This document shows, in pieces, positions 5,504 to 44,377 of a stretch of DNA of 45,646 nucleotides. The stretch comes from Myceligenerans pegani (GTDB taxonomy: Bacteria > Actinomycetota > Actinomycetes > Actinomycetales > Cellulomonadaceae). A model generated the notes under the pieces. That model saw nothing but the letters and a program-made list of their open reading frames with translations. It had not been told where the DNA came from and did no database searches. How positions within the stretch are numbered: position 1 is the first letter of the stretch; each line of letters opens with the position of its first letter. Both the position numbers and the translations under genes were made by a program. The DNA lies in assembly GCF_014892515.1 (NCBI RefSeq), contig NZ_JADBGR010000023.1:1-45646 (forward strand), given 5' to 3'.

Positions 5504-5509
5504 GCTGGG

Positions 5510-23008: not shown

Positions 23009-23081
23009 GGGGCTATGGCGCAGTTGGTAGCGCGTCTCGTTCGCAATGAGAAGGTCGGGGGTTCGAATCCCCCTAGCTCCA
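23009..23081 (+). tRNA. tRNA-Ala (anticodon CGC)
   Basis: The acceptor stem GGGGCTA/TAGCTCC carries the G3:U70 wobble that marks alanine tRNAs. The anticodon loop is TTCGCAA (CGC), and the T arm is GGGGG-TTCGAAT-CCCCC. CCA is not encoded. An excisionase/integrase pair follows, so its 3' end is the likely attachment site of the element to the right. Confidence 0.96.
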
Positions 23082-23089
23082 CCCGGTGA

Positions 23090-23273: not shown

Positions 23274-23528
23274 ATGAGCACGACGCACTCACCCGAGGGG
23301 CCGATGGACCGCAGCGCGCCCCTGTGGACGCTGGACGAGCTGTGCGCGTTCCTGCGTACGACGCCGGCCACGGTGCACACCTGGCGCAAGAGCGGGCGTG
23401 GTCCGCGCGCGTACCGGGTGGGCCGGCACCTGCTGTTCGCCGAGCCCGACGTGCGCGCGTGGCTGGCCGAGCACGCCGACCGGATGGACGACGCCGGTCA
23501 CAGCGACGCTGACGGGTCAGGGTGGTGA
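23274..23528 (+). CDS. xis: Excisionase-like helix-turn-helix protein
   Basis: The 84-residue protein has the MerR/excisionase winged-helix pattern: LWTLDELCAFLRTTPATVHTWRKSG followed by GPRAYRVGRHLLFAEPDVRAWLAEH. Such proteins bend DNA at attachment sites and direct integrase toward excision. The start is uncertain: ATG 23274 has GGAAGG too close to it, while the ATG at 23304, with GAGGGG just upstream, may be the real one and gives 74 residues. Its stop lies 6 nt before the integrase ATG, so the two are co-transcribed. Confidence 0.82.
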   Translation: MSTTHSPEGPMDRSAPLWTLDELCAFLRTTPATVHTWRKSGRGPRAYRVGRHLLFAEPDVRAWLAEHADRMDDAGHSDADGSGW

Positions 23529-28275: not shown

Positions 28276-29301
28276 ATGCGGATTCTCGTGCTGGGTGGCA
28301 GTTGGTTTCTCGGGCGTGCGCTGGTCAGCGATGCTCTGGCGCGCGGGTGGACGGTCACGACGTTCACGCGCGGACGGTCGGGGATGCCCCCGGAGGGCGC
28401 GGAGCACGTGCGCGGCGATCGTCGGAACCAAGACGACCTGGCACGCCTGGTCGAGTCGGGCCCGTGGGACGCGACGATCGACACTTCCGTCTACGAGCCC
28501 GCCGACGTTCTCGCGGTCCTCGACGCGCTGGGGACGAGTGCCGGGAAGTATGCGCTGCTGTCGTCGGTCTCGGCCCATCGCGACTGGCCCCACGAGCCCG
28601 TCGAGGAGGACTCGCCCCTGTGGCCTTCACGGGTTGACGCTGCCGAGACGGACCCGGATATCGCAGCGCAGTCGGTCCCGGCGCAGTACGGGATCCTGAA
28701 GGCCGGGTGCGAGCTCGCGGCCGGGACGGCGCCGCTGGGGACGTTGATCTTCCGTCCGGGCGTCATCCTGGGCCCGGGCGAGTACACGGGCCGGATGCTG
28801 TCGCTGTTCGAGCGCGCGCAGCGCGGCGGGCGGTGGCTGCTGGGCGGTTCGCCGTCGGACCAGATCCAGCCCGTGGACGTCCGCGACGTGTCCCGGTTCG
28901 TGCTGAACCGCATCGCGATTCACGACGAAGGCGCATACAACGTGGTCGCGCCCAGGGAGCCGGAACGGAACTACGGAGCGTTGATCGACGCGTGCCTGGA
29001 GGTCACCGGAGGCACTGCGGAACTCGTGTGGGGCGAGCCGGAGTGGCTGCTGGAGCAGGGGGTGCGGGAGTGGACGGAGATCCCGCTGTGGCGCACACCG
29101 CGTGGAACCTGGGCCGTCTCGGGCCAGAAGGCAGCCGACGCGGGCCTGCACTGCCGGTCCCTGCGCGAGACGGTGGCCGACACGTGGGCCGACTTCCAGG
29201 AGCATCCGCCGGTTCCACACCCACGCCAGGCAGAGCATGGCATGGACCCGGCCAGGGAAGCGGAGCTGCTGGAGCAGTACGACCTATTCCGCGCCCGGTA
29301 G
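28276..29301 (+). CDS. NAD-dependent epimerase/dehydratase-family (extended SDR) protein
   Basis: The 341-residue protein opens with a Rossmann fold (MRILVLGGSWFLGRALVSDAL). DTSVYEPADVLAVLDAL and the active-site pair Tyr138/Lys142 (AQYGILKAG) follow, then FRPGVILGPGEYTGR and IQPVDVRDVSRFVL, as in reductases and epimerases acting on nucleotide sugars or isoflavone-like substrates. The substrate is unknown. The start at ATG 28276 appears leaderless. The 3' end overlaps the end of the convergent TPR-regulator gene by 18 nt. Confidence 0.85.
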   Translation: MRILVLGGSWFLGRALVSDALARGWTVTTFTRGRSGMPPEGAEHVRGDRRNQDDLARLVESGPWDATIDTSVYEPADVLAVLDALGTSAGKYALLSSVSAHRDWPHEPVEEDSPLWPSRVDAAETDPDIAAQSVPAQYGILKAGCELAAGTAPLGTLIFRPGVILGPGEYTGRMLSLFERAQRGGRWLLGGSPSDQIQPVDVRDVSRFVLNRIAIHDEGAYNVVAPREPERNYGALIDACLEVTGGTAELVWGEPEWLLEQGVREWTEIPLWRTPRGTWAVSGQKAADAGLHCRSLRETVADTWADFQEHPPVPHPRQAEHGMDPAREAELLEQYDLFRAR

Positions 29302-30747
29302 TCCGGCCAGGGTGGCGCGGTGGGCGGCGGCCTCTTCGTTGAACGTGACGATCTGGTCGCGCAGGTTCCCGGCCGGGGCGTGGTCTGTCCAGGTGCTATC
29401 GACGAGCGTGGCAGCGAGACCGTCCAGGCGTGAGGTCAGTCCGAATCGCCGCTGGTCGACGGGTGTAGACCACACGGGCGACAGGGCGTCGATCGCTCCC
29501 GAGAGGTCGCGGTCGGCGAGCCGGGCCGATGCCAGGTCCACCCGGGCGCGGTCTGCGACCCGCGAGCCGTCGGTGTCCACGATGACGGCCAGCCGTTCGG
29601 CCGCGGCCTGTGGGTCGCCGGCCTGGACCAGCGCCGTTCCGGCGCACATGTCGTGACGGTGCTGGTCCCAGCCGAACTCGCCACCGAACTCGTCATGCAG
29701 TTCTTCGGTCGCGCCTGAACCGAGCGCCTCGTCCGCGGCCCCGAGCGCCCGGGTGACCTGCCGCTGTTCTCCCTGGAGCGCCCAGGCACGCGCGCGGATC
29801 GCCTGCAGTCGTGCCGTGGCCGCACCGCCGGGTGCGTGCGGGAGCGCCGCCTCGATCGCTTCGACGGCCTCGCCGGGACGCCCGTCCCAGTAGGCCAGCA
29901 GTCCCGCGAAGCCGTTGCTCCATGCCCGCAGCCCGCTGTGCCCGGACAGGTCGGCGTACCGCAGGGCGGCGCGCGTCTGCGCGGTGGCGGCGGTGGACTG
30001 GCCGAGGTCGAACGAACTGCTTGCAAGGAGCGCGCACGACATACCGGCGGCCAGATACAGGTCCATCTGCTGGGCCGGGACCTTGGTCTGGTCGAGCATC
30101 TGGATCGCCAGGTTCCGGGTGCGACGTGCCTGCTCGAGCACGATCACGGGCGTCGTCGAGGTGTAGGCGCGCGACAGGTCGCGGACTTGGTCGTGCAACA
30201 TTTCCATTCCTATCGGGTCGATCGCGATGGCGATGGACGCGAGATGGTCCCAGGACTCACGGGCGGCCTGCGCCGCCGCGGCTCGGACCGTCTCGGAAGC
30301 CACGCCGAGTTGAGGGCTCCGGGCTCGTCTGGCGAGCCCGTTGCCAAGCACGGGAGGGTCAAGGGTCGCGGCCTCGAGCACCTGACGTTCCGCGGGCGTG
30401 TAGCGCGCCAGGTCGGCGTCGTCGATCAGGTCACGGACCGTGCATCCATGCCCGAAGGCACGGGCCAGCCCCATGATGTGTTCCACCCGTGGACGGGTGC
30501 CGCCGCTGCCGATCGGCCACGACTCCCACCGCGAGACACGGCTGCTGTCGAGCTTCGCCCCGGGATTGACTTCCAGGTAGCGCTGCACGACCTGCCACAG
30601 GGTCAGATCCAGCGCGAGCCGCCAAGCCGTGCGTGGCCGGACGCGGTATCGCTCTCCCATCGCGACGGCGATCTGCGGCCAGCTCTTTCCGCTTTCCAGA
30701 AGGGCAGCCCGGAAGGCGTCCCGTCCGGCTTTCTCGCTCCGAGCCAT
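29284..30747 (-). CDS. HTH regulator with TPR-like sensor region
   Basis: The 487-residue protein starts at ATG 30747, with GGAAGG about 9 nt upstream; a TTG at 30777 is an alternative. Residues about 1-100 form an XRE-type DNA-binding module (GKSWPQIAVAMGERYRVRP, then SSRVSRWESWPIGSGG). The rest is a string of Ala-rich helix pairs resembling tetratricopeptide repeats (AAGMSCALLASSSFDLGQ, AYWDGRPGEAVEAIEAAL, ALVQAGDPQAAAERLAVI). Such fused regulators are common beside actinobacterial RiPP and secondary-metabolite clusters and sense peptide or small signals. It is divergent from the operon starting at 30981, which it may control through the repeats in the gap. Confidence 0.82.
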   Translation of the reverse strand: MARSEKAGRDAFRAALLESGKSWPQIAVAMGERYRVRPRTAWRLALDLTLWQVVQRYLEVNPGAKLDSSRVSRWESWPIGSGGTRPRVEHIMGLARAFGHGCTVRDLIDDADLARYTPAERQVLEAATLDPPVLGNGLARRARSPQLGVASETVRAAAAQAARESWDHLASIAIAIDPIGMEMLHDQVRDLSRAYTSTTPVIVLEQARRTRNLAIQMLDQTKVPAQQMDLYLAAGMSCALLASSSFDLGQSTAATAQTRAALRYADLSGHSGLRAWSNGFAGLLAYWDGRPGEAVEAIEAALPHAPGGAATARLQAIRARAWALQGEQRQVTRALGAADEALGSGATEELHDEFGGEFGWDQHRHDMCAGTALVQAGDPQAAAERLAVIVDTDGSRVADRARVDLASARLADRDLSGAIDALSPVWSTPVDQRRFGLTSRLDGLAATLVDSTWTDHAPAGNLRDQIVTFNEEAAAHRATLAGLPGAE

Positions 30748-30813
30748 CCGCGCACCTTCCGCCGTCTTGGTGCTCAACGGTATCCAGGCCCCCGGGCGAA
30801 CGGTAGGTCGAAT

Positions 30814-30980: not shown

Positions 30981-31388
30981 GTGGTCCTGAGACAGCACAT
31001 GACCGACGTGTCGATCCTGGTGCTCGAAGCCAGCTACCAGGCCGACGTGGCGGTCTCCAAGGTCTCGGTCAGCATCGAGCCCGGCGAAGGAGACGAGACA
31101 GGGCACGTCGAAGTGTCCGTCCACGCCGTGGAGGAGCGCGGCGCCGCGCTGTTCGCCGAGCGCCACGGCCTCAGCGAGGACCCCAGCAAGGCCGAGCGCC
31201 TCGCCCCCGGCTCTCGCGCGTGGTCCGGCTGGGCACGACCCGGAGGCATCCCGGCGGTGCGGTACGTCCTGTACTCCACCCCGGCCACTCCGAAGACTCC
31301 CGACAGCCTCAGCGACAGGCAGCAGGACGCCGCGACCGACGCGTCAGCTCCGACGGCCACGCGCACCACCCACGAGGAGAAGAAATGA
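30981..31388 (+). CDS. Hypothetical protein, first gene of a cargo operon (135 aa)
   Basis: GTG 30981 follows GAGGAG with 7-nt spacing. The product has a beta-rich N-terminal half (VSILVLEASYQADVAVSKVS and VEVSVHAVEERGAALFAE) and a charged, disordered C-terminal tail ending THEEKK. It has no membrane span and no known motif. Its stop overlaps the ATG of the HAD gene (ATGA-type junction at 31385), so the two are translationally coupled. The neighbouring small genes appear to form one operon up to about 33666. Function unknown. Confidence 0.65.
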   Translation: MVLRQHMTDVSILVLEASYQADVAVSKVSVSIEPGEGDETGHVEVSVHAVEERGAALFAERHGLSEDPSKAERLAPGSRAWSGWARPGGIPAVRYVLYSTPATPKTPDSLSDRQQDAATDASAPTATRTTHEEKK

Positions 31389-32178
31389 CACAGGAACGCG
31401 ACGACGCGGCCGGGCAGTATCTCCTGGCACTCGACATCGACGGGACACTCCTGGAGACAGGACAGAAGCCCGTCCCACTTGTGGTCCGGACACTCGCAGA
31501 GGTGCTCGCCGCCGGGCACGTGGTCGTCCTCGCCACCGGCAGATCCCTCGCCGGCGCGCTCCCCGTCGCAGCGCAGCTCGGGATGCGCGACGGCTGGCTC
31601 ATCACCTCCAACGGCGCGGTCACCACCCGGGTCCGCGGCGGCAAGGCGCGGATCGTGGAGCGGCACGCGGTCGACGCCGAACGGGTCGTGCGGTTCCTGT
31701 CGCCCAAGGCTCGCCTGCGGATGGCCGCCGAGTCCCTGGTCACGGCTACCGGGTCAGCGACCCGTTCACGTCAGACGAGCTCTCGGGCGTACGGCAGCCC
31801 TCGAACCTCGAAGGACTGTGGGCGGCCCCCACCCCGCGTCTGGCGCTGGTCGGTGACGCCGCGGCCTGGTTCATCGACGACCTGCGCGCCATGGGCTTGA
31901 CCGTGAACACTCCGCATCCCGGATGGGTCGACGTCACACCCGGCGGCGTCTCCAAGTCCTCCGCGCTGGAGCGCGTGCGGATCACGGAGAAGGTCTCGGC
32001 GACCCGCACGATCGCGGTCGGCGACGGCGGCAACGACATCGACATGCTGACCTGGGCGGCCCACGGCGTGGCGATGGGACATGCCCCGTCCGAGGTCCAA
32101 GAGGCCGCCGACCACGTCACCGGGACCCTGGCCGAAGACGGCGTGGTGCCCGTCCTGGCACTGGCGGCGACACGATGA
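31385..32178 (+). pseudogene. HAD-superfamily (Cof-type) phosphatase with a one-base frameshift
   Basis: Motifs of a Cof/sucrose-phosphatase-type HAD enzyme are split over two frames. Frame A carries LLALDIDGTLLE (nucleophile Asp) and VVLATGRS. Frame B carries GGVSKSSALERV (motif III Lys) and AVGDGGNDIDML (motif IV). The switch lies near 31733-31738, within GAGTCCCTGG. Adding one C restores a continuous reading (ESPGHGYRVSDPF, then ELSGVRQPSNLEG and LWAAPTPRLALVGD) of about 264 residues, the normal length. As it stands, frame A runs on to a stop at 31898-31900. It is a disrupted gene, a sequencing indel or, less likely, a programmed shift; no classical slippery heptamer is present. Both ends are coupled to neighbouring genes. 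Confidence 0.8.
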
Positions 32179-32582: not shown

Positions 32583-32616
32583 CCCACTCGCTCGCTCGCA
32601 CCTGGAAGGGATGGCC

Positions 32617-32994
32617 ATGGCCTCCAACGCTGTCGCAGTCGGCTACGCCCGTGACGCCGCGCAGCTCGCCGTCGTACAGGGCCACGCACGCAACCACGGC
32701 TACCTGCTGGCGCACGTCGTCGAAGACGGGCGCGACGCGGCCACCATCAGCCAGCTCACCCAGCACGCCGCGGACCAGAGCGCCCAGGTGGTGATCCTGC
32801 CCGGCGATGCGCTGCTGTCGGCCGCGCGGACGAAGCTGGAGAAGGAACTCGCTGGCGTCGGTGCGCAATGCATTGTGCTCGGTGCTCCGAGCGCGCCCGC
32901 CAGTGGCGTGTTCGAGCGGGTCATGCCACGCCGCGACTTCGACGCCGCCCGCGGTAGACACTCCAAGCGGCCAGGCGAGCAGCATCCGATCTGA
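32617..32994 (+). CDS. Hypothetical protein with recombinase-like alpha/beta pattern (125 aa)
   Basis: GGAAGGG immediately precedes an ATG at 32611, but its spacing favours the next ATG at 32617. The sequence VAVGYARDAAQLAVVQGHARNH, then GYLLAHVVEDG, has the alternating pattern of a resolvase-type N-terminal fold (compare VGYARVS). The catalytic Ser is not present in that place, so enzymatic recombination is not supported. The C-terminus (RGRHSKRPGEQHPI) is basic. It is the fifth gene of the 30981 operon. Family unknown. Confidence 0.55.
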   Translation: MASNAVAVGYARDAAQLAVVQGHARNHGYLLAHVVEDGRDAATISQLTQHAADQSAQVVILPGDALLSAARTKLEKELAGVGAQCIVLGAPSAPASGVFERVMPRRDFDAARGRHSKRPGEQHPI

Positions 32995-33192: not shown

Positions 33193-33666
33193 ATGCGCAG
33201 CACGGGAACGAATCGCACGCCCCGCATCGTCGACCGCCTGCCCCAGCGTCTCGAAGAGCTCATCGGCGAGTCCGTGGCGCGGGCCGTCATCATCGTCGTC
33301 GACGCCGGAACTGCGGCCGAACTCGGCCTCGTCACACCTTCGAGCGCGGCTGGCACAGGCGACTCATCGAGAGCCGGCCGGCGCCCTGGTCTGGCCCGGC
33401 GGCGGTACGAGATGGGCCTCACCCAAGAGGGCCTGGCTCGCGAGATCGGTGTGCAGCCCTCGACCGTCGGCAGATGGGAGAGAGGCGTCACCGCGCCGTC
33501 ACTCTGGGCGCGCGCCCCGTTGTGCCGCGCCCTGGACGTGCCACGGACCGAACTCGACGTGCTCCTGGGAGAAGGCGGCGCTGCCGAACCAACCCGGCTA
33601 CTCCACGTCGTGGAGACGCCCGACGACGGTACCGACGACGCGATGCCCGCTGTGGGCATCGCATAG
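33193..33666 (+). CDS. XRE-family transcriptional regulator (157 aa)
   Basis: ATG 33193 is preceded by GGAGGAAA. The first 70 residues are of unknown fold (LPQRLEELIGESVARAVIIV). An XRE helix-turn-helix follows: RRRYEMGLTQEGLAREIGVQ, then PSTVGRWERGVTAPSLWAR, and the closing helices LCRALDVPRTELDVLLGEGG. Such proteins bind DNA as dimers. The gene ends 91 nt before the lanthipeptide methyltransferase, with direct repeats and a promoter in between, so it is a good candidate to regulate that gene or the whole cluster. Confidence 0.82.
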   Translation: MRSTGTNRTPRIVDRLPQRLEELIGESVARAVIIVVDAGTAAELGLVTPSSAAGTGDSSRAGRRPGLARRRYEMGLTQEGLAREIGVQPSTVGRWERGVTAPSLWARAPLCRALDVPRTELDVLLGEGGAAEPTRLLHVVETPDDGTDDAMPAVGIA

Positions 33667-33757: not shown

Positions 33758-34975
33758 GTGGACACGACAGAACGAGCTGCTTCGCTGCGGGCCGGAATGC
33801 TGGAGCGCTTCCGGGAACGGATCGCCGACGACGTCGCCGAGGCGATGCTCACGGTGCCGCGACACGTGTTCGTGCCAGGGGTCCCGTTGGAGCGGGCCTA
33901 CGGCTCCGGGCCGGTGGTGACGCACCGGGATGCGCAGGGCGTGCCGACCAGCTCGGCCTCCGCGCCGGGCACGGTGGCCGGAATGCTGGAACAGGCCGAG
34001 GTCCGCCCGGGTCACCGGTTGCTGGAGATCGGGGCGGGCACCGGCTACAACGCCGCCCTGCTGAACCACCTGGTCGGCCCCGACGGTGCGGTCACCACGA
34101 TCGAGTACGACCCGCAGGTCGCCGACGCCGCCCGCTCCGCACTGGCCGCCTACGGCGCCGACCGGGTGCGAGTGATCACCGGGGACGGCACCCTCGGCGC
34201 GCCGGAGGACGGCCCGTTCGACCGCATCCTGGTCACCGCCGGAGCCTGGGACGTCGCACCGGCCTGGCGCGAACAGCTCGCACCCGGCGGCCGGCTCGTG
34301 CTACCGCTGCGGTTGAACGGCTTGACCCGCGTCGTCGCGTTCGAGCATTCCGACCACGGCCTGCGCAGCGTGTCCGCCCACGAGGACGGGTTCATCCCGA
34401 TGAAGGGCATCGGTGCGGTCCCCGAGCAAGAGGTCCCGATCGGTCCGGACCGCGAGTTGACCCTGTCCATCGACGATGAACGCCCGGTCGACGCCGACGC
34501 CCTGGCCGACGTTCTGGACAGCGAGCCGCACATCGTGTGGACGGGCATCACCAGGCCGTGGGCGTGGACGCAGAACGTGGACTTCTGGCTCGCCAGCCTG
34601 CCCGGCTTCTGCCGCGTCTTCGTAAACTCCGAGGCCGTGGCCGCCGGACAGCTGCCACGGCCGAAGGACATGTGGGGCGGTTCCTGGGGCACGTTCTCGG
34701 GCGGCACGATCGCCTACCTGACGGCACGCCGGACCGGCGGCACCGATGAGATGCCGATCTTCGAAGTCGGCGTCTGCGGACTCGGGCCGCAGGGCGAGAG
34801 CCTCGCCGCTCAGGTCGTCGAACGGATCACCGCCTGGGAGAACGAGGCCGGTGACCGGGTCGATCTGACAATCGAGGCGTTCGCCAGGGACGACGAAGCG
34901 CCCACCGGGGACGGGCATATCCTGGTGGTGGTCGAGAAGAAGGACAACACGTTCATCGTGCGCACGACGGTGTAG
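33758..34975 (+). CDS. FxLD-system methyltransferase (PIMT-like), lanthipeptide tailoring
   Basis: The 405-residue protein has the protein-isoaspartate-methyltransferase (PCMT) layout: LTVPRHVFVPGVPLERAYG, then VPTSSASAPGTVAGMLEQ and the SAM motif LLEIGAGTGYNAALLNHLVG (Glu90 within it), followed by TTIEYD and ITGDG. A C-terminal extension of about 200 residues distinguishes the FxLD-associated group. In related class I lanthipeptide pathways, PIMT homologues methylate an Asp side chain of the modified peptide, leading to aspartimide or isoaspartate. The precursor here has an Asp39-Gly40 just before its first Cys. The gene ends 7 nt from the convergent lanC. Confidence 0.88.
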   Translation: MDTTERAASLRAGMLERFRERIADDVAEAMLTVPRHVFVPGVPLERAYGSGPVVTHRDAQGVPTSSASAPGTVAGMLEQAEVRPGHRLLEIGAGTGYNAALLNHLVGPDGAVTTIEYDPQVADAARSALAAYGADRVRVITGDGTLGAPEDGPFDRILVTAGAWDVAPAWREQLAPGGRLVLPLRLNGLTRVVAFEHSDHGLRSVSAHEDGFIPMKGIGAVPEQEVPIGPDRELTLSIDDERPVDADALADVLDSEPHIVWTGITRPWAWTQNVDFWLASLPGFCRVFVNSEAVAAGQLPRPKDMWGGSWGTFSGGTIAYLTARRTGGTDEMPIFEVGVCGLGPQGESLAAQVVERITAWENEAGDRVDLTIEAFARDDEAPTGDGHILVVVEKKDNTFIVRTTV

Positions 34976-34982
34976 CGGCCGG

Positions 34983-36230
34983 TCAGGACACCAGCAGCAG
35001 GGCGTCCCACCTGGTCTGGACGGGAGCGGCGGGAAGGCCGGCGCGGTCGGCCAGCGCGAGAGCGACGCCCGCCGCTCCGGTCAGGAATCCGGGGTTGTCG
35101 TGGGCTTGGCCGTAGTCGTGGTGGGCGAAAGTGAAGGGCCTGCCCGGTTCGGTGAACCGTTCCAGCGCGGCAGCCGCGACGGCCGCCACGACGTCGTCCC
35201 GCCCGGCGGCGCACTGCATCACCCCGGCCTGCCCGTGGCACAACGTCAGCCCCTCGGCATCCCACACCTCGGGCCGGTGGGCCAGGCTGGACAGAGCAGC
35301 CGAGCCGACGGCGGTGACGGCGGGGTCGTCGAGGGCGTCACCGGCCAGCATCAGAGCGCGACTGATCCCGGGGATGCCGTAGCACCACGCGGCCCGGCGT
35401 CCGAGCCGGGGTGCGGCCAGGCCGGCGTCGAGTTCGTCGCCGTTCACGTACGGCGGCCAGGCGCCCTCCGACTGCCAGTCGCGCAGCCAGTTCGCGGCGT
35501 GCCGCACCGCAGCTCTCTGCCCTGAGACCGCGTAGCCGGCGGTGATGGAGGCAGCCAGCAGAGCCAGGGGTCCGGCCACGCCATGGGCGAGGCCGGTGGT
35601 CGCCGTCCCGGTGGGCTCGGTTCCTCTTGTTCCGGTGGCCGAGGAGAGTTGGTCTGGCGCGGTCCACCAGCCGGGGCGTCGTCCTGGCGGCTCAACGAGA
35701 ACTCCGGTGAGGGTGCCGAGTGCGGCGTGAAGTCCCCGCTCCGCGTCCGGGTGGCCTTCATGGGACACGGCCAGCAGTATGCGCCCGATGCCAGCGAGAC
35801 CGGAGATCGCGTCATAGACGTGCCAGGGCGCGCCGGTCCCACCCGACTGCACGAACGCGTCGTGCTGCTCGGCAACGGCGACGGCGTAGGCCGCCATCCA
35901 GCGCACGGCGCGTTCCGTCGCAGCCTTGTTGATCTCGGGATCGGGCAGGTACGGCGAACCGATGACCAGCGAGGCGGCCAAGCCGCCGACGGTCGCGTAG
36001 ATGCCGCCGGTACCGGGAGTGCGCCGCGCGAGTTCCGCCGCTCGGGTCCAGTGCGCGCCGGCCGCTCTCACGAACCGCGGGTCTACGCTCGCCAGCCGCG
36101 CGTGCAGCAGGGCTGTTCCCGGCAGGCCGTCCGCGAGCGAGGCGGCCGCACGCGGTCTGACATGAGCGAGCACCACTTCCGGATCCAGCATGCGATCGGC
36201 GACACCGATCGCCGTTGCACCCGCGTTCAC
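34983..36230 (-). CDS. lanC: LanC-family lanthionine cyclase
   Basis: The 415-residue protein shows the LanC toroid repeats and zinc site: GTGGIYATVGGLAASL, LAHGVAGPLALLAASI, WCYGIPGISRALML (Cys283) and LTLCHGQAGVM (Cys331, His332). The enzyme adds Cys thiols to dehydrated Ser/Thr in the peptide to close thioether rings. The start GTG 36230 overlaps the lanB stop as GTGA and is preceded by AAGGAGAG, giving tight translational coupling. An upstream frame continues but is the lanB 3' end in another phase. It is the last gene of the minus-strand lan operon. Confidence 0.9.
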   Translation of the reverse strand: MNAGATAIGVADRMLDPEVVLAHVRPRAAASLADGLPGTALLHARLASVDPRFVRAAGAHWTRAAELARRTPGTGGIYATVGGLAASLVIGSPYLPDPEINKAATERAVRWMAAYAVAVAEQHDAFVQSGGTGAPWHVYDAISGLAGIGRILLAVSHEGHPDAERGLHAALGTLTGVLVEPPGRRPGWWTAPDQLSSATGTRGTEPTGTATTGLAHGVAGPLALLAASITAGYAVSGQRAAVRHAANWLRDWQSEGAWPPYVNGDELDAGLAAPRLGRRAAWCYGIPGISRALMLAGDALDDPAVTAVGSAALSSLAHRPEVWDAEGLTLCHGQAGVMQCAAGRDDVVAAVAAAALERFTEPGRPFTFAHHDYGQAHDNPGFLTGAAGVALALADRAGLPAAPVQTRWDALLLVS

Positions 36231-39124
36231 CGGCTCTCCTTCGCCAGCATCTGGACGGCAAGTGCCCGGGCGATGCGTTCGGTGGCGCGGTCGGCGCCCA
36301 TGCGGTTGGCGTGCATGTGGATGAGCGAGGAGGCGCAGTCCGCCCGGCGGGAGACGGGGACGACCGACCGGTAGGCCGACAACGATGCGGCCCGTCGAAC
36401 CCACGCCTCGCGCTCGTCCTCGGGCAGACCGACCGGCTGGGCGGACGCGACGGCGCGGAGCGTGTTGACGCGACGTCGTGCCGTCCTGTCCAGGCGTGGA
36501 CGCCCGAGCGCATCCAGGTCGCCGTCGGCCACGAGCCGGGTGATCTCGACCGCGGACGCTGCGATGCGCATCAGCCGATCGTCCTCGTCACGCGATCCCG
36601 CCAAGGCCGCAAGGACGTTGTCGCCGTCGGCGTGGAAGACATGCTCGGCCGCCTCGATCGCGCGGGGCCCGCCGTACCTGTCGATCTCGGGCACGTACGG
36701 TTCGAGCGCGAGCGTGCCGACCAGGCCCTGGCTCATGAGGACCGCACTCCAGTCGGACACCGCAGGTAGGACGCGACCGGTGAGGGCTTCGGGCTTCCCG
36801 GCGAACCGCAGTCGCAGATGCGGGCCGTGGCCGGGGCTGTCGTAGCGGAGCCAGAACCAGCGGTCGACATCGTCGCGGACTCGCCCTGCCAGCTCACCGA
36901 CGTGCTCGAGGAGTTCGTCGTGATAGGCGGTCGGTGCTGCCACCACACACGACAGCCACTCGCCCCCGGGCAGATGGGTCACCCGCTCGGCCGACATCGA
37001 CGGCGTCGGCTTCGGCGTCGGATGCTGCCGCGGTTTCGCGGTGGCTCGATGGTCCCGAAGGGGAATGACGAGTTCCAGCGCATGCCGGCCGTCGGGGCCG
37101 GGGACGACGCCCTGCACCGCGTCCGGGCCGCCGGGCAGCTCAGCGACGCGGTCCGTTCCGCGCCGGGTGTAGCGGCGCAGCAGTTCACGGTCGCGCCCGT
37201 CGTCCAGGTCCAGGGGCACGAACCGGTCGCCGTTCTCGACGAGCACCGTCCTGGGAAGACGTGGCCGTGCCGTCGACCGCCAGCGATCCAGCTCGACCTT
37301 CCAGCGCGAGGGAACCTGGGCGGCGGTCAGCAGCAGGTCGGGCAGCCGCCACCGCGCCGGCGACACGATCGTGTTCCGCCACCGCACACGCGGCAGGAAC
37401 ATCGCCTCGGACATCCCGCCCCAGGACCAGGTATGACACGGCCGCGTACCGGACCTCGCCAGCAGCCGCAGCAACCGCGCGACCCGTGGGATGTACGCCG
37501 ACCCGATCCGCGAGTACAACGCCGGAGTGATCTGCCGATCCAGGGCACGCGACCAGAGGCTCAGATGGTGACCGTCCGAGGCGACCTCCAGGTCGTCCAG
37601 CGGAAGGTCGCCGGGCTGCGGTTCCACGCCGACGCCGATGCGCATCGAGGCGAAGCCGGTCGGCACAGCGACCGTGTCCAGTCGCGACGAGCGAGGACGA
37701 ACCACCACCTCCGCCAGTGCTGATGACTCGTCGTGCGTGAGCCCCCGGACCTCGCCGGGCAGCAGCGACGCGAACCGGCCGACGCTCGACCCGGCATCCG
37801 CGGTGCATCCGAAGTACGCCGCCAGCCGATACCGCCCGGCGACAAGGTCTTCCTCCGACGCCGCGACGACACGGGCGTAGAGCTCACCACCCGGCGCAGG
37901 CCGGACCCCATCATCGGGAACGCGCAGCGCGGCAACGGTCGCGTCGTCGAGAACGACCTCGGACCCGCCATCGGCCACGGCGGTAGCCACGAGCTCCGCC
38001 AGGACCCGCATGCGGCGCCGGTCGGGTTCCTCGCGCCCCCGGTTCAGGTCGACCTCGGGGTCACCCAGGCCGACGACGGGATCGACGACGTCGAGCAGCG
38101 GAACACGCCTGCTCGTGCCGTACTTCTCGACGAACCGGGCATGGTACGAGTCCAGCGTGGTCTCCGTGGGCGTGATGCTCCACAACAGCCCGGCCACATC
38201 CGCCGCCTCGCGCACCAGCCGGGCCGGAAGGCGGATATCGGCGTCGGCCACCACGTCCACGGTGATCGCTCCTTCATGGCGGGCGATCGTGTCGCACAGA
38301 TCGCGAGCCGCCGTCAGCGCGGCGACCCGCTCCGGATCGCCCGGCGGGTACAGGTCCGCCTCGTGCAGCCGCTTACGGAGCGCGGACAAGGGCTCGGCCA
38401 GCTCACAATCCACAGGAAGCCGCGACAACACATGTCCCAGCGGATCGTCGGCGACGTCACCGGGGAGCAGATCCGTCAGCAGATGGCCTCGCCGGACCAT
38501 TTCCAGCACGGTCTCGCGCACCAGCTCCTCGGGAGCCTGCGGCCACGGCACGGTCACCGTCGTGACGACGTCACCGAGACTGGCGCCGTTCCGGCACGCG
38601 TCCAGGATCAGGCTGACGGCCGGCGTCGCGCGCAGAGTGATACGCGCCGACGACGTCGTCTCGGCCGACTGCTCGTTCTCGTAGCGGTCTCCGCGTCTCA
38701 CGATCAGGTTGTTCGACGTCAACCGCAGACGCGGCAGGACTCCCGGCTCCTGAACGAGCCGCGCTGCCAGAGCGCCCAGCCAAGCCGATGACGGCATGCT
38801 CCGTGCCCGGTGGGCCGTGCCCATGGCGAACCGCGCCGGCCCCTCGTCCACGTCGGCGACCTGGACACCGGCGAACGCCCCGCGCGGTGTCGCGCGCATA
38901 CGAGCCCGCAACTCGTATGCGCGGACCGTCGCCGCGAGGCGGTCGTCAGAATCCAGGTCCGCCGAGGTGACGTGGCCAAGGGAACGAGAAGCGAACCGCA
39001 CCGCTTCAAGAAGCGGCCCGGCCAAGACGTCCCCCTCTGCGTCCCCCGGACTCACCGGAAGCATCGGGATACGCGCCAGGACCGGAAGCCTCTCGTCCCA
39101 GGTGTACGTCCGCAGCCGGCCCAT
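36227..39124 (-). CDS. lanB: Full-length class I lanthipeptide dehydratase (LanB)
   Basis: The 965-residue protein combines an N-terminal glutamylation domain (about 1-690; ARIPMLPVSPGD, RMRATPRGAFAGV, TLDSYHARFVEKYG, RVRWRNTIVSPARWRL) with a C-terminal elimination domain of the SpaB_C/thiopeptide type (about 715-960). The latter shows WFWLRYDSPGHGPHLRLRF and EPYVPEIDRYGGPRAIEAAEH. Such enzymes use glutamyl-tRNA to dehydrate Ser/Thr. ATG 39124 lies 11 nt after the precursor stop, with AGGCGG 7 nt upstream; an upstream ATG at 39181 would overlap the precursor gene. The 3' end overlaps lanC by 4 nt. Confidence 0.92.
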   Translation of the reverse strand: MGRLRTYTWDERLPVLARIPMLPVSPGDAEGDVLAGPLLEAVRFASRSLGHVTSADLDSDDRLAATVRAYELRARMRATPRGAFAGVQVADVDEGPARFAMGTAHRARSMPSSAWLGALAARLVQEPGVLPRLRLTSNNLIVRRGDRYENEQSAETTSSARITLRATPAVSLILDACRNGASLGDVVTTVTVPWPQAPEELVRETVLEMVRRGHLLTDLLPGDVADDPLGHVLSRLPVDCELAEPLSALRKRLHEADLYPPGDPERVAALTAARDLCDTIARHEGAITVDVVADADIRLPARLVREAADVAGLLWSITPTETTLDSYHARFVEKYGTSRRVPLLDVVDPVVGLGDPEVDLNRGREEPDRRRMRVLAELVATAVADGGSEVVLDDATVAALRVPDDGVRPAPGGELYARVVAASEEDLVAGRYRLAAYFGCTADAGSSVGRFASLLPGEVRGLTHDESSALAEVVVRPRSSRLDTVAVPTGFASMRIGVGVEPQPGDLPLDDLEVASDGHHLSLWSRALDRQITPALYSRIGSAYIPRVARLLRLLARSGTRPCHTWSWGGMSEAMFLPRVRWRNTIVSPARWRLPDLLLTAAQVPSRWKVELDRWRSTARPRLPRTVLVENGDRFVPLDLDDGRDRELLRRYTRRGTDRVAELPGGPDAVQGVVPGPDGRHALELVIPLRDHRATAKPRQHPTPKPTPSMSAERVTHLPGGEWLSCVVAAPTAYHDELLEHVGELAGRVRDDVDRWFWLRYDSPGHGPHLRLRFAGKPEALTGRVLPAVSDWSAVLMSQGLVGTLALEPYVPEIDRYGGPRAIEAAEHVFHADGDNVLAALAGSRDEDDRLMRIAASAVEITRLVADGDLDALGRPRLDRTARRRVNTLRAVASAQPVGLPEDEREAWVRRAASLSAYRSVVPVSRRADCASSLIHMHANRMGADRATERIARALAVQMLAKESR

Positions 39125-39135
39125 CAGCGCGCCGC

Positions 39136-39315
39136 CTACTTGCAGGCGTTGCAGGTCGGCGTGCAGGTGCAGCTCGGGCACTCCGTCCCGGTGCAGCCAT
39201 CCTTCGTCGTGTCCGTATCGGCAGCGTCCCGCACGCCAGGCACGGGCATGACCCGCACATCCAGGTCGAACAGATCGGCCGTAGCGCGGTCCAGAACCGC
39301 GACGTTCTCGCTCAT
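39136..39315 (-). CDS. lanA: FxLD-family lanthipeptide precursor (59 aa)
   Basis: ATG 39315, with AAAGGG about 9 nt upstream, begins a 59-residue peptide. The leader contains LFDLDVRV (Phe16-Asp-Leu-Asp19), the FxLD box that LanB recognises. The C-terminal core starts after KDG and carries six Cys (41, 46, 49, 51, 55, 58) and six Ser/Thr (42, 44, 48, 50, 52, 54), an unusually dense CTGTECPSCTCTPTCNACK pattern. Up to six thioether rings are conceivable, though full closure is not implied. Asp39-Gly40 is a favourable site for aspartimide formation by the neighbouring methyltransferase. The cleavage site and activity are unknown. Confidence 0.9.
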   Translation of the reverse strand: MSENVAVLDRATADLFDLDVRVMPVPGVRDAADTDTTKDGCTGTECPSCTCTPTCNACK

Positions 39316-39706
39316 CGAATGCCCTTTCGGCTGGTCATGACAGCGGTCACCGACCATCGAACCCGCGCAGATCCTGGCGAACCAGAGCATCCACCGGGCA
39401 CCTTCCGGGCACTTCGTATGACGGACGCGCGGCGGGGGCACGGACCAACTCAGCTCCCAGATCTCGCCCCTCCATCCCCACCACCCACACACCCACATCC
39501 CCTTCCCCCAAATCCCCCACACCACCCCCAACCCACCTATCCCCCATCCCACATACCACCCCACCCACACCACCACACCAACCCCCCTCCCCACACCCAC
39601 CAGACCCCTCCTCCCCTCCACACCAGCACGCCTCTTGCAGATCGAGGAGCACAAGCGGCACTGCGCATGCTGGTGCGCGGGGCCGCGAAGCTGCCATGCT
39701 CCTACG
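39316..39706. other. Upstream region of the lanthipeptide operon with a G-free tract
   Basis: This 391-nt divergent intergenic region serves lanA (minus) and the nuclease-like gene (plus). It contains the 136-nt G-free tract (separate entry) and no reliable gene; frames through the tract give low-complexity Trp/Gly/Val peptides. A TACGAT at 39703-39708 could be a -10 box for the right-hand gene. Confidence 0.6.
39467..39602. repeat. 136-nt G-free, C-rich low-complexity tract (G-rich on the lan strand)
   Basis: Not one G occurs on the + strand from 39467 to 39602. It consists of C-runs of 2-6 separated by A or T (for example ACCACCCCCAACCC and CACCACACCAACCC). A further G-poor stretch runs to 39625. 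On the minus strand it is a long series of G-tracts that could form quadruplexes. As + strand RNA it would be C-rich and G-poor, like a Rho-utilisation region. It ends 152 nt upstream of the lanA start. Confidence 0.85.
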
Positions 39707-40726
39707 ATGCTTCAGCAGCCGGCGTCTGGTCGTGTGTCCGATACCACCCATTCGAGCTTGCAACGGTCGCCCGCGATGCCTACCGGGCCGACGAGGGCTG
39801 CCATGCGCGAAGCGATCGCCGAGGCGCTCTGGCACCACGTAAAGGCACCCCGTCTCGCTGACGAGTGTGATGATCTGCAACTGCCACAGCGTGACGATCT
39901 GCCTGATCCGATGGCAAGCAAGCGCGTCTATGTGAAAGCCCGGTTACGCGGGTTGGGCATCGATCAACTGATCGAAGTCGGACGGCAAGTTCACCACGAG
40001 TTCCCACACAGCGATCTGGAGCGTCTACTCAATCCTGGCGCAGCTCGGAGCGTCGACGGAGAGGTGAAGAACATCATCTTCGCGGCCGTGGGGGCAAAGC
40101 CAACGATCGTGATCAGGGATGCGCTCTCAAATCTCCTTGAGATCACCGATGGCTCGGATCGCGTGCTGGTCTATGACCGCGAGGTCGGCGAGGCGGGTCT
40201 GACGTGGTCGTCGCTGACGTCGTGGTGGGTGGAACGCCAAGTACTGCGAAGCTCAGGCGATACGGACGGTGCAAGGCAACTCTACGGTCGTCTTGTCGGA
40301 TCTGTTGCCAACGAGGCAGAACGAATGATTTTCAGAGCCTACTGTGGACTTTATGGTACTCATGGTGGTGACATACCGGCAATGCTGCCGCAGGTCTATC
40401 TGCACTACGATCCCTACGCTCGTGGCCGCGGAGGGACACTTGTAAGACAGCGCATGGACTTCCTGCTATTGCTGCCGCACGGGCGTCGAGTCGTCATCGA
40501 ACTGGACGGTGTGCAGCATTATGCAGACCACGAACGAGCATCGTGCGGGCACTACGCCGCTCGGCCAGCAAAGTACGCCGAGATGGTCAAGGAGGATCGG
40601 ACGCTCCAGCTTCACGGGTATGAGGTCTACCGGTTCGGTGGTGCCGAACTCGTGAATCGTGAGGAAGCGCAAGCGATGTTGGGCGACTTCTTCCGGGCAC
40701 TGCTTGACCTACCGAGTCAGGGTTAG
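39707..40726 (+). CDS. Putative AbiJ-related/PD-(D/E)XK nuclease-like protein
   Basis: The frame gives 339 residues from ATG 39707, or 316 from ATG 39776; neither start has a ribosome site. The N-terminal part (AMREAIAEALWHHV, KRVYVKARLRGLGIDQLIEVG) resembles the small helical N-terminal domain of AbiJ-type abortive-infection proteins, which is a tentative match. The C-terminal part has LVRQRMDFLLLLPHGRRVVI then ELDGVQHYADH, followed by KYAEMVKEDRTLQLHGYEVY and RFGGAEL. This is a pattern of the PD-(D/E)XK nuclease fold (Asp in RMDFLL, Glu-Leu-Asp, Lys/Asp later). Codon use is less GC-extreme than its neighbours, suggesting separate acquisition. A phage-defence role is inference. Confidence 0.65.
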   Translation: MLQQPASGRVSDTTHSSLQRSPAMPTGPTRAAMREAIAEALWHHVKAPRLADECDDLQLPQRDDLPDPMASKRVYVKARLRGLGIDQLIEVGRQVHHEFPHSDLERLLNPGAARSVDGEVKNIIFAAVGAKPTIVIRDALSNLLEITDGSDRVLVYDREVGEAGLTWSSLTSWWVERQVLRSSGDTDGARQLYGRLVGSVANEAERMIFRAYCGLYGTHGGDIPAMLPQVYLHYDPYARGRGGTLVRQRMDFLLLLPHGRRVVIELDGVQHYADHERASCGHYAARPAKYAEMVKEDRTLQLHGYEVYRFGGAELVNREEAQAMLGDFFRALLDLPSQG

Positions 40727-40855: not shown

Positions 40856-43800
40856 ATGACGGTGTCGATGAAGAAGATGTCGGCCGGGGACGGCTACCGG
40901 TACTTCATGGAGTCGGTCGCGGTTGGCGACGGGGACCGGTCGATGGCGACTCCGCTGACCCGCTACTACGCCGAGACCGGAACCCCGCCGGGCCGGTGGC
41001 TCGGTTCCGGCGTCAAGGACCTGGGTTCGGACAAGGCGGGCCGCCTGGCGGTGGGGGACATCGTGACCGAGGCGCAGATGGCGCGCCTGGCGGGCAAGGG
41101 CATCGACCCGATCACCGGCGGCAAGCTCGGGCGCTCCTACCCGGACTACGAGCCGGGCTCGAACAGGACCGCGGTGGCCGGATACGACTTCACGTTCTCC
41201 CTGCCCAAGTCCGCCTCCGCGCTGTGGGCGGTCGCGGACGCAGACCTGCAGGAAGCGATTGTGGAAGCTCATCATGGCGCGGTCGGGGATGTGTTCGCGG
41301 TCATGGAACGCGAACTGGCCGCCACCCGGGTCGGCGCGGCGGTGGCGGGCAACGCGGTGCGGGCGGCGGGGGAGGGCGGGGCAGTCGCCCAGGTCCCGGT
41401 CACGGGTCTGATCGCGATGGCGTTCGATCACCCGGACTCGCGCGCGAACGACCCGCACCTGCACACCCATGTGGTGGTGTCGAACAAGGTCAAGACGGTG
41501 CTGGACGGCAGGTGGCGGTCCCTGGACGGGCGGCCCCTGCACGACGCGACCGTGGCCCTGTCGGAGCTGCACGAAGCGATCGTCGCCGACCGCCTGACCC
41601 GTGCACTGGGCGTGGAGTGGGAGCCGCGCAGCCGCGGGACCGACCGCAATCCGGCCTGGGCCATCGCCGGGGTGCCGGAGGAGTTGGTGGAGGCGTTCTC
41701 GAGCCGGTCGGCGCAGATCGATGCCCGCACCGACGAACTCATCGCCGAACACCGCGCCACCCACGGCCGCGCGCCGACATCCAAGCGGATCGTGAAGTAC
41801 CGCGCCCAGGCCACCCTGGAAACTCGCCCCGAGAAGGTGCAGCGCTCCCTGGCGGACCTGACCGGCGCATGGCGCAACCGCGCCGCCCGGATCCTCGGCC
41901 GCAGCCCCGCCGACTGGGCCAGGCAGGTCGCTTCTGGCGGGCGGGTGCGGTTGCTGCGGGCCGATGATGTCCCCCAGGACGTCATCAACGATGTCGCGGC
42001 GACGGTGTTGATCGCGGTGGGGGACAAGAAGTCGACCTGGCGCCGCTGGAACCTGGTTGCCGAGGTTGCTCGGCAGACCAAGGCCTGGCGCTTCGCCAGC
42101 ACCGCCGACCGCGTCACCGTCACCATGGCCGTCACCGACCAGGCGCTGGAGGGCTCGGTCCGGTTGACGCCGTTGGACTTCGAGGCCACCCCGGCCGCGT
42201 TCCTGCGCGCGGACGGGACCAGCATCTTCCGGGCAAAGGACTCGGCCGTCTTCACCTCCCAGGCTCTGTTGGATGCGGAGGAACGCCTGGTCAAGTGCGC
42301 CGACACGCGCACCGCACCCACCCTGGATCTGGCCGCCGTCGACCACGCGATCGTGAAACGAGGCGGCAGGTCGCGGGACGGGCGTCCGGTGCGGTCGGTG
42401 TCGGTCGAGCAGGCCGAGGCCGTCGCCCGCATCGCGGGCTCGGGCCGCCAGGTCGATCTGCTCGTCGGTCCGGCCGGGGCCGGGAAGACCACCACCATGT
42501 GCGCCCTGCGCGCCGCGTGGGAACACCAGCACGGGCGCGGCTCCGTGGCCGGCCTCGCGCCGTCGGCCACGGCCGCCGAGGTGCTGGCCGGGGATCTCGG
42601 GATCGGGTGCGAGAACACGGCCAAGTGGCTGTACGAGCACTTCAACGGCCGGGCACGCTTCCGGGAGGGGCAGCTCGTCATCGTGGACGAGGCCACCCTG
42701 GCCGGGACGTTCTCGCTGGACCGGATTACCGCGCACGCCGCCGCGGCCGGGGCGAAGGTGCTTCTGGTCGGCGACCCCGCACAGCTCCAAGCCGTCCAGG
42801 CCGGCGGCGCCTTCAGTCTGCTGGCCGCAGAACGCGCCACCCGGGATGGCGTGCCGAAGCTGACCGAGGTGCACCGCTTCACGAACGACTGGGAGAAACG
42901 CGCCTCCCTCGCCCTGCGCCACGGCCGCATTGAAGCCGTCGGCGCCTACCTCGCCCACGACCGAGTCCGCGACGGCGAGACCGACCAGATGATCGAGTGC
43001 GCATACGACGCCTGGCGGGGTGACCTCGCCCAGGGCAAGGCGTCTGTCCTGGTCGCCACCGACACCGAAACCGTCCGCGCGCTGAACGAACGCGCCCGCG
43101 CTGAACGCCTGCACATCGGAGCCACCGACGCCGGTCGGGCCGTCCGGCTGGCCGACGGCCTGGATGCCTCTGCCGGTGACGTGGTGATCACTCGGCGCAA
43201 CGACCGGCGGCTGCGAACTCGCAGCGGCGACTGGGTGCGCAACGGCTCCCGGTGGACCGTCGCCAAGGTCCGCGACGACGGCTCCGTCGTCGTCCGCCAG
43301 CCCGGCGCGAAGTACGGCAGAACCGTTGTGCTCCCGGCCGACTACGCCGCCGAGCACCTGGACCTGGGGTACGCGATTACCACCCACCGCACCCAGGGCG
43401 TCACCGTCGCCACCGCACACTTGCTCGCTGCCCCGGGCATGACCCGTGAACACCTGTACGTCGGTCTGACCCGCGGCCGGGAGAACAACACCGTCTACCT
43501 CGCCACTGACACCGGCGCCGACATCACCCCGGACGACTACGAGGAACCCACCGCCCGCGCCATCCTCACCGCGATCCTCCACACCAGCGGCGCTGAGAAG
43601 GCCGCCACCCAGACCCGACGCGACGAACACGAACGCTACGGGACGATCGCGCGGCTCGCCGCCGAGTACGAAACCCTGGCCGCCGCCGCACAACGCGACC
43701 GCTGGACCCGGCTCCTGCACAACTCCGGCCTCACACCGGACGAGGTCGACCAGGTTGTCACCGCGCCCGCGTTCGGAGCCCTGACCGCCGAACTTCGACG

Positions 43801-44377
43801 AGCCGAAGCCGACGGCTACACGGTCGAAGCCGTCCTGCCTGCCCTGGTCGCACAGCGCAGCCTGGACGACGCCGAGGACCCGGCCGCAGTCCTGCACCAC
43901 CGGCTCGCACACGCCACTGCCCGGCCGCGACGCTCGGACGGGCTCACTCCGCGCTTGACACCGCAGCCGCGACGGATCGCCGGGCTCATCCCCCAGGCGA
44001 CCGGACCCATGCCCGCCGAGTACGAGCAGGCGCTCCAGCAACGCGAACGGCGCATCGAGCAACGTGCCGACGAACTCGTTGCCCGCGCTCAGCGCGACGA
44101 CGAACCCTGGTTCACCCAGCTCGGACCCGAACCCGCCGACCAGCGAGGCCGCCACGCCTGGCGCACCGCGGCCCGGACGGTGGCTGCCTACCGCGACCGC
44201 TACAACATCATGAGCGAGGCTTCCCTTGGCGTCGAGTCTGTTGCCACCGGCATTCAGGCGGTCGACGCCCGACGAGCTACAGCAGCCCTGCACACCACCG
44301 AGCCTCCGTGGTCAGCGCCACCGGCCCATTGGCATGGTGGTTCCGGTCCTGAGGCCGACTACGGGGTCGACCTGTGA
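40856..44377 (+). CDS. MobF-family (TrwC/TraI-like) relaxase-helicase
   Basis: The 1173-residue protein has an N-terminal relaxase domain with tyrosines at GYRYFMESV and TRYYAETG and the three-histidine metal site DPHLHTHVVVSN (His201, 203, 205). An SF1 RecD/TraI-type helicase follows: GPAGAGKTTTM (Lys544), VDEATLAG (Asp611-Glu612), LLVGDPAQLQAV, and late motifs GYAITTHRTQGVT and YVGLTRGRENN. The C-terminus is a charged, Ala/Arg-rich tail. It nicks oriT and unwinds the transferred strand. The ATG at 40856 is preceded by GAGGTGGG held in a hairpin. No mating-pair genes are seen, so the element may rely on a helper or on genes beyond the window. Confidence 0.95.
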   Translation: MTVSMKKMSAGDGYRYFMESVAVGDGDRSMATPLTRYYAETGTPPGRWLGSGVKDLGSDKAGRLAVGDIVTEAQMARLAGKGIDPITGGKLGRSYPDYEPGSNRTAVAGYDFTFSLPKSASALWAVADADLQEAIVEAHHGAVGDVFAVMERELAATRVGAAVAGNAVRAAGEGGAVAQVPVTGLIAMAFDHPDSRANDPHLHTHVVVSNKVKTVLDGRWRSLDGRPLHDATVALSELHEAIVADRLTRALGVEWEPRSRGTDRNPAWAIAGVPEELVEAFSSRSAQIDARTDELIAEHRATHGRAPTSKRIVKYRAQATLETRPEKVQRSLADLTGAWRNRAARILGRSPADWARQVASGGRVRLLRADDVPQDVINDVAATVLIAVGDKKSTWRRWNLVAEVARQTKAWRFASTADRVTVTMAVTDQALEGSVRLTPLDFEATPAAFLRADGTSIFRAKDSAVFTSQALLDAEERLVKCADTRTAPTLDLAAVDHAIVKRGGRSRDGRPVRSVSVEQAEAVARIAGSGRQVDLLVGPAGAGKTTTMCALRAAWEHQHGRGSVAGLAPSATAAEVLAGDLGIGCENTAKWLYEHFNGRARFREGQLVIVDEATLAGTFSLDRITAHAAAAGAKVLLVGDPAQLQAVQAGGAFSLLAAERATRDGVPKLTEVHRFTNDWEKRASLALRHGRIEAVGAYLAHDRVRDGETDQMIECAYDAWRGDLAQGKASVLVATDTETVRALNERARAERLHIGATDAGRAVRLADGLDASAGDVVITRRNDRRLRTRSGDWVRNGSRWTVAKVRDDGSVVVRQPGAKYGRTVVLPADYAAEHLDLGYAITTHRTQGVTVATAHLLAAPGMTREHLYVGLTRGRENNTVYLATDTGADITPDDYEEPTARAILTAILHTSGAEKAATQTRRDEHERYGTIARLAAEYETLAAAAQRDRWTRLLHNSGLTPDEVDQVVTAPAFGALTAELRRAEADGYTVEAVLPALVAQRSLDDAEDPAAVLHHRLAHATARPRRSDGLTPRLTPQPRRIAGLIPQATGPMPAEYEQALQQRERRIEQRADELVARAQRDDEPWFTQLGPEPADQRGRHAWRTAARTVAAYRDRYNIMSEASLGVESVATGIQAVDARRATAALHTTEPPWSAPPAHWHGGSGPEADYGVDL

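Follow-up and report, generated by a model that had tools for sequence, protein, structure and literature searches.

Myceligenerans pegani contig NZ_JADBGR010000023.1 carries a small peptide-modifying gene cluster within what appears to be a mobile element. The window analysed here is this whole contig (C11 of genome G000, 45,646 bases), and the genome comprises 5.87 Mb in 111 contigs. The gene content of positions 33758-39315 marks them as a class I lanthipeptide cluster consisting of a precursor, LanB, LanC and a methyltransferase related to protein-isoaspartate methyltransferases (PIMT). Taken as a whole, we read the locus as a mobile, probably intracellular system for an aspartimide- or isoaspartate-bearing class I lanthipeptide that is most likely directed against phages, and we assign this reading a probability of about 55%.

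The peptide, dehydratase and cyclase genes follow one another on the minus strand in the order precursor, LanB, LanC. The precursor (39136-39315, 59 residues) contains an FDLD box at residues 16-19, the segment T37-K38-D39-G40-C41, and six cysteines at positions 41, 46, 49, 51, 55 and 58, as seen in its sequence and in an alignment of 11 precursors. Its stop codon is separated by only 11 bases from the ATG of LanB (36227-39124), a full-length dehydratase with glutamylation and elimination domains (PF04738, 484.2 bits; PF14028, 138.4 bits; scanned as the open reading frame 36227-39181), whose nearest solved structure is 5ehk (E=1.5e-77). The ATG at 39124, giving 965 residues, is more likely the LanB start than the GTG of the list of open reading frames, because the gene caller also places the LanB ATG shortly after the precursor in the related loci L019 and L126. 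LanC (34983-36230; PF05147, 124.9 bits) overlaps the LanB stop, and its alignment with NisC shows conservation of an Asp, a His, a Cys and a Cys-His pair, which we take to be the active and zinc site. The methyltransferase gene (33758-34975, plus strand, 405 residues) converges with LanC and ends 7 bases beyond the LanC stop. All four reading frames are open. The FDLD-box precursor and the coupled minus-strand LanB and LanC described in the initial annotation are thus present. The combination of LanB, LanC and methyltransferase was found in 59 of 101 screened loci (the window, L019, L021, 80 phylum-wide loci and 18 loci of the host family, with L023 and L125 representing one and the same contig), while 42 miss this rule; a co-occurrence of this extent exceeds chance.

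The methyltransferase belongs to the FxLD system and is a PIMT-like O-methyltransferase of the LanS_A/PAMT type. It matches the NCBIfam model TIGR04364 (methyltran_FxLD) with 397.6 bits, against a cut-off of 320, over model positions 1-389 of 394, in agreement with the convergent FxLD-type enzyme named in the initial annotation. Its N-terminal half is PIMT-like, with 1dl5 as the nearest solved structure (E=8.4e-30), a likeness that a housekeeping repair PIMT lying by chance beside a lanthipeptide cluster would also show. However, the four housekeeping PIMT models that match the protein all stay below their cut-offs (best 137.9 bits versus 282), and the genome holds a separate short PIMT-like gene on contig C91. 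In the methyltransferase tree the C91 gene stands apart from every FxLD row at the tip of a very long branch, although its exact position is unsure. This tree comprised 66 rows, namely every second one of the 80 phylum-wide loci (40 rows) together with rows from the same genome, the host family and Streptomyces-type loci. Since the enzyme passes TIGR04364, falls below the PIMT cut-offs and takes a tree position apart, the housekeeping identity, which the initial annotation had flagged as the outcome that would undo its proposal, was rejected and retains a negligible probability.

Within the tree, the window methyltransferase forms one clade with L019, L020, L126, L128 and L023 (support 100/100). 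All members come from the host family (family here and below as assigned in the genome collection, 221 genomes), and two of them, L019 on contig C44 and L020 on contig C56, lie in the same genome as the window. A scan of the collection with the window methyltransferase gave L023 as the best match at 66% identity and nothing else above 48%, so that close relatives outside the host family were not seen. The window, L019 and L126 are the three clade members with an intact cluster. The other three, L020, L128 and L023 (from Myceligenerans indicum, on one contig with L125), have no LanB, and their LanC is missing or partial. In total, G000 encodes five FxLD-type methyltransferases at E<=1e-60, four of them above the TIGR04364 cut-off: the window copy, the C44 copy in a complete cluster adjoining MobF, the C56 copy lacking LanB and LanC, and the C88 copy in a complete cluster of another architecture. 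The fifth, on C75, does not reach the cut-off; LanB is missing from its vicinity, and a MobF gene lies about 8 kb away.

Candidate precursors, defined by an F-x-[LIVMF]-[DE] leader motif and at least two cysteines, were present in 55 of 62 loci with LanB, LanC and methyltransferase (the 59 above and three of the genus that is probably Streptomyces), and 49 of these 55 contain [ST]xDxC. Precursor homologues next to LanB and LanC in other genomes, on which the initial annotation had let its case depend, were thus found. Among the six candidates without the motif, L071 and L077 look spurious, L053 has Asn in place of Asp, and L024, L029 and L032 read T-D-N-G-C; the seven loci without a candidate include L021, whose precursor was read by eye. 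The alignment of 11 precursors shows no variation at D39, C41, C46 or C51 and almost none at T37. Counting cysteines in the last 35 residues gave 6 for the window, 7 for L019 and 8 for L126, versus 2-4 for the other 52 candidates. The precursor model TIGR04363 (cut-off 30) did not match the window peptide at E<=1 and reached only 19.2 bits for L019 and 16.9 bits for L126, while the precursors of C88 in the same genome and of L130 pass it. Hence, the proposed comparison with the FxLD models came out positive for the methyltransferase and negative for the precursor, whose membership of the TIGR04363 family was rejected in spite of its FDLD leader box. Judged by these sequences, the window represents a cysteine-rich FxLD lanthipeptide subfamily, so far in one family and on MobF elements, and is a new variation on a known pathway.

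The core T-K-D-G-C of the window peptide corresponds to the TxDGC motif, which is carried by most precursors of PAMT-associated lanthipeptides (PMC10787088). In the enzyme route described for this group, an Asp is methylated after cyclisation and converted to an aspartimide, which then gives isoAsp or Asp (PMC13001092). The closest relatives in this respect are the PIMT-tailored class I lanthipeptides, or lanthimiditides, such as OlvA with OlvS_A, which share LanB, LanC, a LanS_A-type methyltransferase and the Asp-Gly of TxDGC. The window differs in the six cysteines of its core, which outnumber those of the other precursors examined for cysteine content, in its convergent gene order and in its adjacency to MobF. 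By analogy, aspartimide or isoaspartate chemistry is very probable for the window peptide, and the two papers accordingly support the PIMT-family chemistry that the initial annotation had taken from the family. The view of the product as probably undescribed applies to this peptide and its subfamily only, since 1305 PAMT-lanthipeptide clusters have been reported (PMC10787088) and, in one genus that is probably Streptomyces, 162 of 392 genomes contain the pathway type.

The cluster appears to lie on an element at a tRNA gene. A tRNA-Ala (CGC) was located by ARAGORN at 23009-23083 (plus strand), and its last 36 bases (23048-23083), the likely core of the attachment (att) site, recur as an exact copy on contig C40 of the same genome (positions 4158-4193). 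The tRNA gene is followed on the plus strand by a small helix-turn-helix (HTH) protein (23304-23528; PF12728 HTH_17, 41.5 bits), a probable excisionase by its position, and by a tyrosine integrase (23535-24878; PF00589, 49.4 bits). Beyond the lanthipeptide genes, a MobF relaxase-helicase is encoded at 40856-44377 (plus strand; NF041492, 228.1 bits, cut-off 100), so that both flanks named in the initial annotation, integrase at tRNA-Ala and MobF, could be substantiated. The window stops inside the element, at the contig end (45646), and C40 likely carries the right end, the join between the contigs being deduced from the att copy. On the element side of this copy, C40 encodes a 1499-residue NTPase (L017, 4590-9089; PADLOC model PDC-M54A, E=1.8e-17) and a transposase.

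Genome G189, from another genus of the same family, has an identical tRNA-Ala (CGC), after which come an integrase homologue, a ParB_N protein and regulators, then a window-type cluster and MobF. No exact att copy was found in it, but at a distance of 55-59 kb there are two copies that match at 35 of 36 positions. A search of 19 genomes for a clean empty site was negative, as no genome showed complete matches to both flanks. A single piece in G020 (query 61-175) spans the tRNA and 40 bases of the right flank, but the same contig holds the 36-base att copy and a MobF gene, suggesting that this site is probably occupied too. We consider it very likely that the element was inserted at tRNA-Ala by this integrase, and the presence of several att copies gives the site the look of a hot spot. 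The MobF gene of C44 (L148) has as neighbours a DUF4917 protein, which weakly matches SIR2_2 (138-1217), and a tyrosine integrase (5269-6561), which suggests another element that has a distinct integrase.

The association with MobF extends beyond the window. Methyltransferases of the FxLD type at E<=1e-60 were found in 14 of the 221 family genomes (27 genes, not all above the family cut-off), and these 14 genomes contain MobF at 35 places. For 12 of the 27 methyltransferases the start lies no more than 12 kb from that of a MobF gene, compared with 0.36 expected from the genome sizes. They comprise the window type (the window, C44 and G189:C4), other lanthipeptide clusters (G195:C30 and G021:C69), six clusters without LanB, and G186, which was not among the 23 of the 27 loci whose surroundings were inspected. 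As a control, condensation domains of non-ribosomal peptide synthetases in the same genomes were never within 12 kb of MobF (0/16, lists compared by eye). LanC was discarded as a control because 12 of its 15 matches have an FxLD methyltransferase no more than 10 kb away. The literature on lanthipeptides together with integrative or conjugative elements or relaxases yielded no paper on a MobF linkage of lanthipeptide clusters, most subscription journals being outside its scope. In addition, relatives of the methyltransferase occur in 54 plasmid records (E<=1e-30).

The proposed function derives from a comparison with lanthiphages, which share with the window the LanBC class I type and the phylum. 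Secondary sources describe these peptides of Actinomycetota as encoded in defence islands and protecting Streptomyces from phages. By the same accounts, they have so far been active only intracellularly, with no obvious antibiotic activity (PMC12715929, PMC12360287). The picture of a tailored natural product in the initial annotation is thus not the one suggested by the literature on related clusters, which points to intracellular anti-phage peptides. In S. coelicolor, lanthiphage_Sco is reported to be the lan cluster adjoining the cvn8 conservon (region SCO6927-6938); SCO6931 and SCO6932 are given as its precursors and tied to anti-phage defence, SCO6930 as LanB and SCO6929 as LanC, and SCO6928 appears among listed putative methyltransferases, which the listing authors took for DNA methyltransferases.

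A corresponding arrangement was found in genome G855, where a conservon with all of its parts (HATPase, Roadblock, DUF742 and GTPase) and a GAF protein adjoin a precursor, LanB, LanC and a fusion of Lant_dehydr_C with a PCMT domain. From this S. coelicolor-like arrangement, the genus of G855 is probably Streptomyces. Five regions of this genus were inspected, of which L149, L150 and L152 have a lanthiphage-like precursor and L151 and L153 do not; the conservon was checked with Pfam in G855. The G855 methyltransferase reaches 416 bits with TIGR04364, and its precursor shows the same invariant core residues as the window peptide. The G855 cluster differs from the window in its split LanB, in the fused methyltransferase, which belongs to another clade, and in its precursor, which has 4 cysteines and matches TIGR04363 with 57.8 bits. 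Combined, the arrangement, the TIGR04364 match and the core residues make it very probable that the lanthiphage type is among the clusters with an FxLD methyltransferase. For the window cluster itself we infer the anti-phage function by analogy, and the chances for and against it appear evenly balanced.

The following pathway can be envisaged for the window, each biochemical step being deduced from gene families and related systems. The precursor would be recognised through its FDLD leader, LanB would dehydrate Ser and Thr residues of the core, and LanC would form (methyl)lanthionine rings on up to six cysteines, including a Thr37-Cys41 ring around Asp39-Gly40. The FxLD methyltransferase would then methyl-esterify Asp39 within this ring, leading to an aspartimide that may be kept or opened to isoaspartate. 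Dehydration, cyclisation and Asp methylation with aspartimide formation are established for OlvA and others, as told by citing papers. The modified peptide may act inside the cell, most likely on phages, as the related lanthiphage peptides are reported in print to do, and the cluster would travel with the MobF relaxase on the element integrated at tRNA-Ala (CGC).

Several observations weigh against this reading. The window methyltransferase lies outside the branch of the lanthiphage-like loci, in a separate clade, so its function may differ from theirs. The precursor falls outside the FxLD model and carries extra cysteines, and the anti-phage link draws on secondary accounts of lanthiphages. 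An intracellular peptide would agree with the absence of ABC transporter (ATP-binding cassette) or MFS (major facilitator superfamily) matches lying wholly within 3 kb in all 59 loci (single-query phmmer, four queries). However, this test is insensitive, as any ABC or MFS match was obtained in three loci only, and an MFS gene of L021 that starts 2.1 kb from the methyltransferase was not counted under the whole-gene rule. The additional check for ABC motifs, applied only for the count of 59 loci, missed known ABC genes.

The surroundings of the clusters are likewise of limited help. The neighbour scans covered 137 of 168 proteins from 22 loci; the 31 left out include small genes and MobF of the window and all six proteins of L019, and 10 were scanned singly later. 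Here ABC_tran did not rank with the 25 most frequent Pfam families, but random regions contained it in only 2 of 122 proteins. Evidence from neighbouring defence genes is thin, such genes occurring near 3 of the 22 loci (a type I methylase, a Gabija pair and a DISARM-like helicase). The 137 neighbours matched 128 PADLOC families, compared with 42 for the 122 proteins of 20 random regions, so random regions match as well; among the 25 matches listed for them are helicase (HamB, GajB and RTasHel), WYL, mads_3 and PDC-M23B models, and their best scores are lower. Beside the window cluster PADLOC recognised no known defence system among seven complete proteins and a HAD fragment, its only matches being generic ones to mad2 (methyltransferase) and RmrA-type (HTH protein) models.

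Finally, the MobF linkage has a P value of about 2e-16 that ignores relatedness and contig ends, and outside the family it is rare: only 6 of 80 phylum-wide loci have a match to the MobF hidden Markov model in their flanks (L023, L050, L052, L058, L077 and L094), several of them weak or partial. A general, phylum-wide linkage was thus not seen among these 80 loci; an even sample of the phylum, in which 14 of 396 genomes had a match, was too thin to be used.

The main rival is a secreted bacteriocin, that is, a lantibiotic carried as competitive cargo on the mobile element, exported and freed of its leader by host proteins. Class I lanthipeptides are classically antibacterial, and the linkage of 12 of 27 methyltransferases to MobF would suit such cargo. 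An M20-type peptidase is encoded within the element (26880-28082). In addition, the nisin cluster, which likewise consists of class I lanthipeptide genes, is carried by an integrative and conjugative element (cited in PMC12715929). By contrast with the nisin element, a transporter, an immunity gene and a typical leader protease were not recognised among the scanned genes of the window, which are not all of its genes, and the host belongs to another phylum. Taken with the weak exporter tests, which showed no conserved exporter near the clusters, and with the intracellular action reported for the related lanthiphages, a bacteriocin seems unlikely.

The peptide could alternatively serve in signalling or development, steering transfer of the element or differentiation of the host under NsdA-type and XRE regulators. 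NsdA-family regulators are indeed the commonest NCBIfam neighbours (17 of the 137 proteins), and XRE and MobF genes flank the window cluster, but regulators are to be expected for any cluster and a receptor or secretion gene was not recognised, so that this possibility is improbable. Decay of the cargo cluster, with the product no longer being made, is conceivable given the HAD gene split over two frames and the three of six clade members without LanB, and this too speaks against a functional anti-phage system. Yet precursor, LanB, LanC and methyltransferase are open in the window, and the HAD gene, which a single-query phmmer search detected in just one of the 80 phylum-wide loci (L023), is probably dispensable, which makes decay quite improbable. 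We retain the mobile, probably intracellular anti-phage lanthipeptide as the preferred interpretation.

The genes surrounding the cluster complete the description of the locus. Upstream of the methyltransferase, the plus strand encodes a haloacid dehalogenase (HAD)-type hydrolase frame (31385-32178), a small conserved protein (32611-32994, aligned in 7 loci) and an XRE-type regulator (33193-33666; PF01381, 42.1 bits). The hydrolase frame is split into 31385-31900, which matches PF08282, and 31891-32178; both pieces match the homologue at C44, and the gene is probably non-functional as sequenced. Unbroken homologues stand beside the C44 and C88 clusters, and 16 of 23 family loci have HAD matches. 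The small conserved protein recurs beside FxLD clusters in the host family. It matched nothing in Pfam, and its AlphaFold model (mean predicted local distance difference test score 72) matched nothing in Foldseek at E<=0.001; its by-eye reading as a resolvase relative was dropped, as neither search gave support.

Further upstream, an NsdA-family regulator resembling tetratricopeptide-repeat proteins is encoded on the minus strand (29284-30747; NF053720, 107.3 bits, cut-off 75, scanned as 29284-30777; no Pfam match), and on the other side of the cluster a DUF559-like protein is encoded at 39803-40726 (plus strand; weak PF04480 match, 18.1 bits, below the cut-off of 20.6). Eight phosphotransferases (APH, PF01636) are also among the neighbour proteins scanned, as are seven with a Lant_dehydr_C domain. 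A G-rich tract of 170 bases (39467-39636, on the strand of the lan operon) separates the precursor from the divergent gene; it has 65% G and 1.8% C, and of the 22 G-quadruplex motifs that start on that strand of the window, 21 do so within the tract or at its edges. Nothing of this kind was seen in the 400 bases upstream of the L019, L021, L126 and L129 precursors, and the interpretation of the tract as a conserved regulatory element was rejected. A scan for promoters and terminators gave no signal exceeding that of shuffled sequences.

FxLD-like methyltransferases without a nearby LanB form one clade of nine rows in the tree (L022 and L135-L142; support 96/94), six of which lie within 12 kb of MobF. 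L022, L136 and L139 have in common radical SAM, exonuclease-like and thymidylate-kinase-like proteins and an aldo/keto reductase; the Pfam basis consists of three L136 proteins, with the radical SAM match below its cut-off. This clade may belong among the orphan rSAM-PAMT clusters described in PMC10787088. Nine phage records (H41-H49, eight of them Streptomyces phages) contain a PIMT-like methyltransferase region covering 31-40% of the query.

For the host family, we tentatively propose, at somewhat less than even odds, that FxLD systems act as mobile chemical immunity: MobF elements would take up anti-phage lanthipeptides that act inside the cell, exchange them and spread them, the aspartimide or isoaspartate ring would be part of the mechanism, and the window would represent an undescribed cysteine-rich subfamily. 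If true, a large class of modified peptides, mostly without a known role, would be tied to mobile anti-phage immunity, in the form of a four-gene cassette with Asp39 as the predicted modified residue. Such mobility could also explain the five FxLD-type methyltransferase genes of one genome, three of them near MobF. Even if the anti-phage role should fail, the MobF linkage and the cysteine-rich precursor subfamily newly inform how these clusters spread.

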